This document shows, piece after piece, positions 30,738 through 33,571 of a DNA stretch of 48,285 nt (position 1 is its first letter; each line of letters starts with the position of its first letter). This stretch comes from Candidatus Poribacteria bacterium (GTDB lineage: Bacteria; Poribacteria; WGA-4E; WGA-3G): NCBI GenBank assembly GCA_022825665.1, contig JAJDWI010000092.1, forward strand, positions 1 through 48,285. Reading direction: 5' to 3'. A model generated the notes under the pieces. That model saw only the letters and a program-made list of their open reading frames with translations. It searched no databases and was not told the DNA's origin. The position numbers and the translations under genes were made by a program.

Positions 30738-31358
30738 TTATGATTCAACGTTGATCGGGATTTCTGTAGGTTTAGCATCCTCAGATTTAGGAATCACAAT
30801 TGACAACACACCATCCTTAAATTCTGCTTTTATACCATCAGCATTAGCATGCGGTGGTAATGGAAGCATGCGTCTGAACTTTCCGTATCTAAGTTCTGAT
30901 CTACGAAACTTATGATTTTCATCAGTTTGTTTCCGTTCTTTTTCACCTTTTACTTTCAAAAGCCTATCGGTTACAGAGATATTGATACTGTCTTGGGATA
31001 CTCCAGGTAGTTCAAACAATACCTCAAACTTATCTTCCAGAACAGTCAACTCAATAGGTGGATTCCAAACCGATTTCCCTTTTCCTCCTCTTCCCCTTCG
31101 GGAATCAAATCTTCTATTGAAAAATGGATGACGGGATCTAAATCCTGCTTGTGCCGGTCGTTGTCGATTTCTCCTCCGTCTTGGGGAATGATCATTGTCC
31201 GATCCTCTTTCAAATGGACGGTTCCGTCTATTTCCTCTTGCTTGTGCGCGTGGTCCTTGTCTCCTGCCTTCAGTAGGTCTGTTAGGTCTTCTTCCTCTAC
31301 CTTCTCGCGGACGATGCCCTCTTGGACCTCTGGGACCTTGTTGCGGTGAATTTCTCAT
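30738..31358 (-). CDS. Small heat-shock protein (Hsp20) with long Arg/Gly/Pro-rich N-terminus
   Basis: 206 residues. Residues 1-95 contain 30 arginines plus many Gly, Pro, Gln and Asn, including RGPRGHRPREGRGRRPNRP-type stretches and an RRRRNRQR block, and look disordered and nucleic-acid-binding. Residues ~98-206 are a normal alpha-crystallin domain (ELTVLEDKFEVLFELPGVSQDSINISV, GEKERKQ, FRRMLPLPPHA, KAEFKDGVLSIVIPK). Hsp20 proteins hold unfolding clients; this tail suggests RNA or DNA partners, which is inference. AAGGAGAATTG precedes the start. Third gene of the hsp20 cluster, behind a terminator. Confidence 0.9.
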   Translation of the reverse strand: MRNSPQQGPRGPRGHRPREGRGRRPNRPTEGRRQGPRAQARGNRRNRPFERGSDNDHSPRRRRNRQRPAQAGFRSRHPFFNRRFDSRRGRGGKGKSVWNPPIELTVLEDKFEVLFELPGVSQDSINISVTDRLLKVKGEKERKQTDENHKFRRSELRYGKFRRMLPLPPHANADGIKAEFKDGVLSIVIPKSEDAKPTEIPINVES

Positions 31359-31449: not shown

Positions 31450-31492
31450 CAACAATGGGGTTGGCACAATTGACATGCCAACCCCATTGTTG
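31450..31492 (-). terminator. Strong terminator after the middle hsp20 gene
   Basis: AACAATGGGGTTGGCA (31451-31466) and TGCCAACCCCATTGTT (31476-31491) form a perfect 16-bp stem (17 with the flanking C-G) and a 9-base loop; on the minus strand it is followed by GTTTTAAT. It should separate the Arg-rich hsp20 gene from the two upstream ones. A second small hairpin (ATCCTAAT/ATTAGGAT, 31417-31444) follows. Confidence 0.85.
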
Positions 31493-31504
31493 AATATATA
31501 ATGT

Positions 31505-31960
31505 TTAGTTTTCCTGTGTCCCACTTACTTCTGCCTGAACGGTGATTGGTATCTCTTTCGGTTTTACCTCTTCAGCTTTTGGGATAGACAGGGATAAAAC
31601 ACCATCGGTGAATTCGGCTTTGATGCTGTCTGTATCAACTTTCGGAGGAAGCGAAAACCTACGCTCGAAACTACCATAACGTCTTTCTACCCGTTTGTAG
31701 TTATTAGAATCGTCAACATTTTCCTGACGTTTTTCACCTTTGATTGTTAAATAGTCATCTTTGACAGAAATGTGGACATCTTCCGATGGTATACCGGGCA
31801 GTTCTGCACGCACCTCATAACTGTTATCCGTTTCAGAAATATCTGTTGAGGGTGTCCATGTATAGTTCTCCCTCACAGGAACTGTCTGTCGTCCAGCAAA
31901 TGGAACATTGAAAAACCTAAACGGGTTTACTACGGGTCTACGTAAAGTCAAATAAGTCAT
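31505..31960 (-). CDS. Small heat-shock protein (Hsp20/alpha-crystallin)
   Basis: 151 residues, normal Hsp20 size. Starts MTYLTLRRPVVNPF, then an alpha-crystallin domain: WTPSTDISETDNSYEVRAELPGI, DVHISVKDDYLTIKGEKR, ERRYGSFERRFSLPP, IKAEFTDGVLSLSIPKAEE. The C-terminal IPITVQ matches the I-x-I tail used in oligomer assembly. GAAGGAGAAG lies before the ATG. Probably cotranscribed with the upstream hsp20 gene at 32076 and ended by the strong terminator just downstream. Confidence 0.95.
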   Translation of the reverse strand: MTYLTLRRPVVNPFRFFNVPFAGRQTVPVRENYTWTPSTDISETDNSYEVRAELPGIPSEDVHISVKDDYLTIKGEKRQENVDDSNNYKRVERRYGSFERRFSLPPKVDTDSIKAEFTDGVLSLSIPKAEEVKPKEIPITVQAEVSGTQEN

Positions 31961-32009: not shown

Positions 32010-32069
32010 TTACAGCATTATTCTGGGTTTCAAGCGCGCTTACAAAGCGCGCCTGCTGTGTGTAAGTCC
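32010..32069. repeat. Degenerate copy of the 12.8-kb element's right half
   Basis: AGCATTATTCTGGGTTTCAAGCG (32013-32035) parallels 12826-12848, and the segment ends in GTGTAAGTCC like the element end TGCGTAAGTCC. A GC-rich hairpin GCGCGCTT/AAGCGCGC (32034-32052) lies in between. The left end is not recognisable. Confidence 0.5.
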
Positions 32070-32075
32070 ATCGTG

Positions 32076-32525
32076 TTAAGAGTTTACCGAGATTTGAATT
32101 TCTTTCGGTTTTGCTTCTTCAGCTTTTGGGATTATTAGGCTTAAAATACCATCCTTAAATCCTGCTTTGATGTCAGAGGTATTCACAAGACGTGGTAACG
32201 TGAAACTTCTTTGGAAAGTACCATATCGTCTTTCTACACGATGAAAGTTTTTGTCCTCAGTTTTCTCTTCAACATGTTTTTCACCTTTGATAGTCAGTAA
32301 GTTATCGGTTACTGATATGTTGACATCGCTTTCTGAAACACCAGGAAGTTCTGCTTGGATTTCATAACTATTTTCCGTTTCGGCAATGTCAACCGTTGGT
32401 GTCCAAGAAGTAGTTTCAGTATTCACATCACTGTCTTGAGAGGAAAGAAGATCACCGAAAAGCCTTCCCATCTCATTATGAAGGTTGAAAAGATTTCCTA
32501 TTGGTTTGCGTGTTAAATATGTCAT
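32076..32525 (-). CDS. Small heat-shock protein (Hsp20/alpha-crystallin)
   Basis: 149 residues. N-terminal arm MTYLTRKPIGNLFNLHNEMGRLFGDLL, then WTPTVDIAETENSYEIQAELPGVSESDVNISV, LLTIKGEKH, ERRYGTFQRSFTLP, IKAGFKDGVLSL-like IKAGFKDGILSLIIPKAEE, and the I-x-I tail IQISV. Closely related to the gene at 31505, indicating duplication. AAAGGAGAAG precedes the ATG. First gene of the cluster, directly downstream of two sigma-54-type promoter matches. Confidence 0.95.
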   Translation of the reverse strand: MTYLTRKPIGNLFNLHNEMGRLFGDLLSSQDSDVNTETTSWTPTVDIAETENSYEIQAELPGVSESDVNISVTDNLLTIKGEKHVEEKTEDKNFHRVERRYGTFQRSFTLPRLVNTSDIKAGFKDGILSLIIPKAEEAKPKEIQISVNS

Positions 32526-32570: not shown

Positions 32571-32585
32571 GCAATTTCCGTGCCA
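32571..32585 (-). promoter_or_regulatory. Sigma-54 (-24/-12) promoter match upstream of hsp20
   Basis: Minus strand TGGCACGGAAATTGC (32585 down to 32571): GG and GC separated by exactly 10 bases and nearly all consensus positions (TGGCACG-N4-TTGC) present. The expected start near 32560 gives a ~35-base leader to the hsp20 ATG at 32525. Confidence 0.75.
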
Positions 32586-32631
32586 AATATCATTAAACTA
32601 CGATTATGTTTTCTAACTGAAAATAATATAA

Positions 32632-32646
32632 GCAATTTATATGCCA
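32632..32646 (-). promoter_or_regulatory. Second sigma-54 promoter match, 61 bp upstream
   Basis: Minus strand TGGCATATAAATTGC (32646 down to 32632), again GG-N10-GC, same strand and orientation as the first. Two such matches in tandem make chance less likely. Confidence 0.6.
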
Positions 32647-32923
32647 AAACATGTTAAGACATGAATGATGTGTAAATATGCTTAGTTGGGGGCTGTGTTC
32701 GGACCGCAACTAACTGAAATGGCTATTAAAAACGCACATAAAAAATGTATATCCAATAGCTATTTAGAGCGACTTATAATGATAATTTGAAGGGAATAAT
32801 GGAGAAAACCTATCTGCTACAATGACAATACCGTGTCATTATGAAACGGTGTATATGTCAAATAGACATTATCAGAATTTTGTAAATAACGGGGTTAGAG
32901 AAAATGATTAAAGTAAGGTGGGA
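32647..32923. other. Gene-free upstream region of hsp20, possible activator-binding region
   Basis: No gene. An imperfect inverted repeat AAATGGCTATT (32717-32727) / AATAGCTATTT (32755-32765) lies 70-180 bases upstream of the sigma-54 matches, the distance at which sigma-54 enhancer sites usually occur; whether it is one is unknown. The rest shows nothing recognisable. Confidence 0.35.
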
Positions 32924-33571
32924 TTAGTTGTTTTGAGTGGTAAGTCGGGCGCGTATACCGGCAGCAATAGTTTGTAGTGCGATATGATTTTCATTAAGAT
33001 AAGGTATAATCATGTCAGCATATTGCTTACAAGGTTCAGTGTAGATAGGATAGTTTGGTAGGACATCACGTCTGTACCACTTGATTGCGGCTTCCAGATT
33101 CGCACTACGTGTGCCGACATCACGTTGCATGCGTCTAAGCACTCGTTCATGTGCGTCTACTTCTAAAAAAAGTTTGATATCAATTAAGTCTCGGAGTTGT
33201 TCGTTCCAATAGATTAAGTGTCCTTCTACAATTACCACACAACTTGGTTGTGTAACTTTCTTTTTATCACCCCGACTTGCTGCTCGTGTTCCGGGTGCTG
33301 GTGTCTCAATTGGACTATTTGAACGTAGTTTCTCAACATCTGCTATAAGTACATCCCATTGTACTGCATCGGGGTGATTGGCTGTTACTACCTTTTCCCG
33401 TTCTTCAGGTGTGAATTCTGACCAATCTCGAAAATATAAGTCTTGATTTAATATAATAGGAGTGTGTTCAAAGAGTTTCTCTGCAAGTGCTGCAGCGAAT
33501 GTTGTTTTGCCAGATGCTGAACCACCCATAATTCCAACGATAATTGGTGTCAGTTTGTCGTTTTTTGTCAT
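32924..33571 (-). CDS. udk: Uridine kinase family protein
   Basis: 215 residues, usual size. Walker A GIMGGSASGKTTFAAALAE near residue 12, NQDLYFRDW, NHPDAVQWDVL and VVIVEGHLIYWNEQLRDLIDIKLFLEVDAHERVLRRMQRD are as in uridine/cytidine kinases (pyrimidine salvage). Phosphoribulokinase-like relatives share this core, so the exact substrate rests on family resemblance. Divergent from the small ORF/AAA pair. Confidence 0.85.
   Translation of the reverse strand: MTKNDKLTPIIVGIMGGSASGKTTFAAALAEKLFEHTPIILNQDLYFRDWSEFTPEEREKVVTANHPDAVQWDVLIADVEKLRSNSPIETPAPGTRAASRGDKKKVTQPSCVVIVEGHLIYWNEQLRDLIDIKLFLEVDAHERVLRRMQRDVGTRSANLEAAIKWYRRDVLPNYPIYTEPCKQYADMIIPYLNENHIALQTIAAGIRARLTTQNN

Follow-up and report, generated by a model that had tools for sequence, protein, structure and literature searches.

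Tandem predicted sigma-54 promoters at an hsp20 locus and a palindrome shared by chaperone genes in Poribacteria

Two sigma-54 sites in tandem precede an hsp20 gene pair

The stretch of DNA analysed (48,285 nucleotides; hereafter the window) corresponds to contig 49 in a Poribacteria genome of 4.53 Mb that is 95% complete. Three HSP20-family genes were found in this genome, all at one locus in the window: hsp20-1 (32076–32525, minus strand; PF00011, E = 4e-26), hsp20-2 (31505–31960, minus strand; PF00011, E = 1e-27) and hsp20-3 (30738–31358). A terminator hairpin lies 3′ of hsp20-2 (31450–31492, minus strand), with a 19-bp stem followed by TTTT. A terminator-like site was also sought in the gap between hsp20-1 and hsp20-2 and none was seen, thus the two genes are probably co-transcribed on one RNA, with hsp20-1 as the first target gene. 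The same gap holds a perfect 8-bp hairpin, GCGCGCTT-TGT-AAGCGCGC, that has no T run (32034–32052) and might act in RNA processing or stability. The product of hsp20-3 carries, before its alpha-crystallin domain, an Arg/Gly-rich N-terminal extension of ~100 residues that is probably disordered.

Between hsp20-1 and a uridine-kinase-like gene (32924–33571), the minus strand harbours two exact sigma-54 matches, the proximal TGGCACGGAAATTGC (32571–32585) and the distal TGGCATATAAATTGC (32632–32646). As the original prediction had it, they stand in tandem 61 bp apart, each with strict GG-N10-GC spacing, and both agree with the sigma-54 consensus TGGCAY-N5-TTGC; they are the only exact matches to TGGCAYNNNNWTTGC in the window. 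Relative to the hsp20-1 ATG at 32525, the proximal site ends 45 nt and the distal site 106 nt before the gene, and their spacing predicts transcription starts at ~32559 and ~32620, respectively. From the density of a reversed control pattern, we infer a chance of roughly 1 in 10 million for two right-strand sites to fall within 300 bp of a given start codon. A third near-match (31466–31480) was rejected as a promoter, since it sits within the 19-bp terminator hairpin after hsp20-2. The proposal that the tandem sites drive the hsp20 cluster thus holds at the sequence level for hsp20-1 and hsp20-2, but not for hsp20-3, which lies past the strong terminator and lacks its own sigma-54 site.

Sigma-54 machinery and sites genome-wide

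The genome encodes RpoN (E = 2e-60) and at least eight enhancer-binding proteins (EBPs), eight of them strong matches, so the components on which the original prediction depended are present. The genome-wide scan that it proposed returned 37 exact sites versus 12 for the reversed control pattern. About two-thirds of the 37 are positioned outside long reading frames, and, judged by sequence similarity, the genes shortly 3′ of them include glnA, a response regulator gene, dnaK and clpB. Two genes for large predicted exported proteins (L033 on C114 and L158 on C163), one of which resembles alpha-2-macroglobulin by eye, are preceded, 77 nt from the start codon, by the same sigma-54 sequence, TGGCACGAAAATTGC.

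The hsp20 promoter sites are conserved

Twenty-two Poribacteria hsp20 loci were taken from named genomes, and the upstream region was readable in 21. All 21 harbour at least one sigma-54 site and 16 harbour two or three, with variable spacing between sites and diverged flanks; the distal site is kept more regularly (20 distal versus 14 proximal at the profile threshold). When the loci were aligned on the sites, strong conservation peaks coincided with TTGGCA and TTGC and no comparable −10 box was seen; therefore, a sigma-54 promoter fits the pattern, and an overlapping sigma-70 promoter does not. Outside the phylum, 58 Hsp20 relatives were examined, including those of Bacteroidetes, KSB1, Zixibacteria, Ignavibacteria and others, and a −24/−12-like site was present within 350 bp upstream of 43 of them (4.4 expected from shuffles). 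The counts across loci and genomes given here and below are not independent, because many of the loci are mutually related.

The same arrangement at dnaK, clpB and groESL

For a survey of the Poribacteria family, 58 genomes were drawn. A sigma-54 site was found in 26 of 29 dnaK and 26 of 28 clpB upstream regions, nearly all scoring 0.98–1.0, and before every groES-linked groEL (21/21). Orphan groEL2 genes serve as a natural negative control within the same family: none of their 27 upstream regions carries a site. Sites are thus present at groESL, dnaK and clpB, as in a Flavobacterium-like sigma-54 regulon for protein quality control. The original prediction, which described the arrangement at hsp20, was right there but had missed these three further operons.

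Classical heat-shock controls were searched for in parallel. HrcA was detected in none of the 58 genomes by a search that was positive in seven of 14 control genomes. As had been noted from the sequence, no CIRCE element is visible: none was found in the window at up to 3 mismatches, nor before groEL. No RpoH was recognisable in the window genome, as the two full-length sigma-70 proteins scanned score at most 144 (RpoH cut-off, 323) and resemble RpoD/RpoS; the other sigma loci inspected, which are part of ~50 matches, are ECF-like, ECF fusions or a divergent sigma-70-like protein. These ~50 Sigma70_r2 matches in the window genome (G000; for example, L170, L174 and L180–L191) include many ECF-type domains at the N terminus of long frames (~400–1050 aa), which are apparent sigma-factor fusions. 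The main chaperone response of Poribacteria, as far as sequence can tell, appears to be an activator-driven sigma-54 switch that replaces the textbook sigma-32 and HrcA controls.

A palindrome upstream of the chaperone promoters

Inverted 4- and 5-mers were sought, with no prior model, upstream of the promoters in 93 regions. A palindromic core, TGYCA-N3-TGRCA (consensus GTGTGYCAAWTTGRCACAC), was found upstream of the chaperone sigma-54 promoters: TGCCA-N3-TGGCA is present in 32 of the 93 regions (shuffle maximum, 3) and the related TGTCA-N3-TGACA in 13. A symmetric 19-bp profile matches at 26/26 clpB, 24/26 dnaK, 21/21 gro and 17/20 hsp20 promoters; some loci have no palindrome above threshold, and the distance to the promoter differs between genes. 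The palindromes lie ~20 to 290 bp upstream of the −24 element, usually 45–215 bp and often in two or three spaced copies. Their positions are largely typical of the gene (at ~113 and often 73 bp for groESL, at ~91 and 46 bp for most dnaK, and variable for clpB), and at hsp20 there are usually two or three copies ~20 bp apart, 130–260 bp before the upstream −24 element.

To exclude circularity, hsp20 sequences were left out and the profile was trained anew on dnaK, clpB and gro alone. At 7 bits, this hsp20-free profile matched 17 of 20 Poribacteria hsp20 promoters (0.95 expected) and 32 of 42 sigma-54-type hsp20 promoters of other phyla (1.55 expected), yet none of 39 control windows and none of the 27 orphan groEL2 upstream regions. 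It also matched five of 16 hsp20 upstream regions with no recognised sigma-54 site (0.65 expected), in some of which a site was perhaps overlooked.

In the window, three putative enhancer copies were located on the minus strand: copy 1 (TAATGTCTATTTGACATAT, 32853–32871; score 10.9), copy 2 (CCGTTTCATAATGACACGG, 32831–32849; score 10.7), whose centre is 22 bp from that of copy 1, and the weak copy 3 (TATTGTCATTGTAGCAGAT, 32812–32830; score 7.0), whose counterpart scores higher in relatives. An element picked by eye, AATGACA-N6-TGTCATT (32821–32840), was discarded, as it overlaps two adjacent copies and is not a conserved unit. When the 37 exact sigma-54 sites of the genome are compared, hsp20, dnaK and clpB alone have palindromes of at least 10 bits; glnA and the remaining sites have no strong palindrome, with two weak matches (8.7 and 7.1 bits). 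Exact palindrome matches genome-wide number nine, four at chaperone promoters and five within reading frames, versus six for a control pattern; taken by itself, the exact pattern therefore lacks specificity. Of the five reading-frame matches four were scanned, and none of these has a sigma-54 site at promoter distance. The palindrome is a putative activator-binding site. Together, site conservation and the shared palindrome lend sequence-level support to the tie to an AAA activator that had been predicted for hsp20.

A receiver-less EBP as candidate activator

At the hsp20 loci examined no clear EBP gene is nearby; three weak matches (E ~1e-11) most likely represent AAA+ proteins of other kinds. 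Across the Poribacteria genera compared, five or more EBP groups are retained. Among the EBPs, L003 (G000 C23:5135–6565), which is located downstream of secDF, consists of AAA+, lid and Fis-type HTH domains with no receiver, and occurs in each of the six Poribacteria genomes compared, where it is preceded by secD-secF plus one to several unassigned proteins of ~200–280 aa. One of the latter, the 255-aa protein between secF and L003 (L312:4389–5156; relatives L393–L396 and L400, ~200–280 aa and in one to several copies), was scanned and had no Pfam or NCBIfam match. A second receiver-less EBP, L007 (C70:419–1549, minus strand), is related to L003 but has a different HTH helix, with close relatives in some only of the Poribacteria genomes compared.

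A tree of AAA+ domains places L003 together with EBPs of other phyla, most of which lack a receiver (support 0.894), and three EBPs of this clade sit in miaB-EBP-lptE clusters. In Flavobacterium psychrophilum, the sigma-54 regulator adjoining lptE is locus tag 0733, with groES and groEL at 0729 and 0728 (PMC9723704). We infer that the EBP of the miaB-EBP-lptE clusters and this regulator are the same gene. By this circumstantial chain the PspF-like L003 is the best candidate for the activator, a reading that we hold to be evenly balanced between right and wrong.

Discussion

It is likely, in our assessment, that both sites are real sigma-54 promoters and belong to one dedicated heat-shock (protein-quality-control) regulon of hsp20-1/hsp20-2, dnaK, clpB and groES-groEL, with one EBP acting on the upstream palindromes. 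Sigma-54 RNA polymerase would wait in the closed state at each chaperone promoter until the EBP, bound to the palindromes, opened the promoter by ATP hydrolysis; at hsp20, the tandem promoters would give two start points served by one enhancer cluster, and hence more output. The signal is presumably heat or misfolded protein. Because L003 lacks a receiver, its control would fall to a partner, perhaps through chaperone titration as in PspF-PspA or DnaK-sigma-32.

The main rival keeps the regulon but assigns it to L002, a two-component NtrC-type EBP that would work like the HsfB-HsfA phosphorelay of Myxococcus. L002, judged from its sequence, begins like a receiver domain, is retained, with an unchanged ERSNLYKKM helix, by most of the Poribacteria genera compared, and is directly preceded by an ORF for a 643-aa membrane sensor-like (kinase-like) protein; moreover, HsfA activates the heat-shock gene lonD, as related in PMC9109919. 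Yet nothing was seen to connect L002 with chaperone genes, while for the receiver-less clade there is the lptE/groESL neighbourhood in Flavobacterium, and we consider this assignment unlikely, if worth keeping in view. A different role for the palindrome, that of a repressor operator at the chaperone genes with some other EBP activating the promoters, is improbable. HrcA/CIRCE is a precedent for palindromic chaperone operators, and symmetry alone cannot separate an activator site from a repressor site; however, the palindrome, often as two or three spaced copies, is found on the upstream side of the −24 element and does not overlap the promoter, and it accompanies the sigma-54-type hsp20 promoters of other phyla too.

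The remaining alternatives concern the promoters themselves. That they answer nitrogen or another general signal, through an EBP of the remaining sigma-54 regulon, would accord with the other sites in the genome that precede glnA-like and response-regulator genes. Those other promoters lack the strong palindrome of the chaperone promoters, a difference that suggests a separate activator, and we rate this explanation a little lower still than the repressor. Hardly credible is the view that the sigma-54 match is accidental and that hsp20 is driven by an overlapping sigma-70 promoter, TTGGCA-16-TATAGT. A promoter scan did return a 10/12 sigma-70 match overlapping the proximal site, but sigma-70-like sites are about as frequent as in shuffles (7 versus 6.5), the conservation peaks include no comparable −10 box, and the second hsp20 site and three further chaperone operons carry the same sigma-54 motif.

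A comparable case is E. coli ibpB, a small heat-shock gene for which sigma-32 as well as sigma-54 promoters have been reported; there, however, sigma-54 is additional to sigma-32 and a single gene is concerned. L003 resembles PspF, an EBP which answers stress, in its AAA+ and Fis-type HTH domains and in having no receiver, but PspF has other target genes and L003 scores 262 bits against a PspF family cut-off of 443.55.

Sigma-54 control of chaperones as such is already known (PMC9723704; PMC12316311). In F. psychrophilum, sigma-54 (SM4) starts were mapped at groESL, dnaK, clpB, grpE-dnaJ, htpG and lon (PMC9723704). Groups shared with our set are groESL, dnaK and clpB, known here from sequence and there from mapped starts; the Flavobacterium case differs in that it concerns another phylum, the selection of promoters shown does not extend to hsp20, no activator or activator site is assigned and no doubled promoter is described (PMC9723704). 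A scoring-matrix survey reports that, in Planctomycetota and Bacteroidota, sigma-54 sites are enriched at the GroEL, IbpA, GroES, GrpE, DnaJ and DnaK COGs; it is statistical, its main text has no Poribacteria, and its passages on chaperone genes tie no activator or enhancer to them (PMC12316311). In Myxococcus xanthus, the NtrC-like EBP HsfA belongs to the HsfB-HsfA pair (PMC9109919, citing Ueki and Inouye 2002); unlike the receiver-less L003, it is a response regulator paired with a kinase, and its targets are different. The main text of a paper on the Desulfovibrio sigma-54 regulome does not mention hsp20. In the open-licence literature searched, we found no description of sigma-54 chaperone control in Poribacteria, of a doubled hsp20 promoter, of the cross-phylum palindrome or of a link between this palindrome and a candidate activator, although an earlier description elsewhere is possible.

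More tentatively, and with slightly less confidence than in L003 itself, a single receiver-less EBP recognising TGYCAAWTTGRCA might govern the heat-shock response as master activator, both in Poribacteria and in many Bacteroidota-like phyla. Such a system would be of old origin and, in place of sigma-32 or HrcA, would rely on an enhancer: chaperone promoters would remain closed and be opened by ATP-driven remodelling. Chaperone control in bacteria without sigma-32 or HrcA has been little studied beyond model phyla. With a defined palindrome, a short list of targets and a named candidate activator, the proposed switch is directly testable in culturable relatives. The sigma-54 heat-shock switch suggested here may thus be an old and widespread solution, not a single-gene curiosity.
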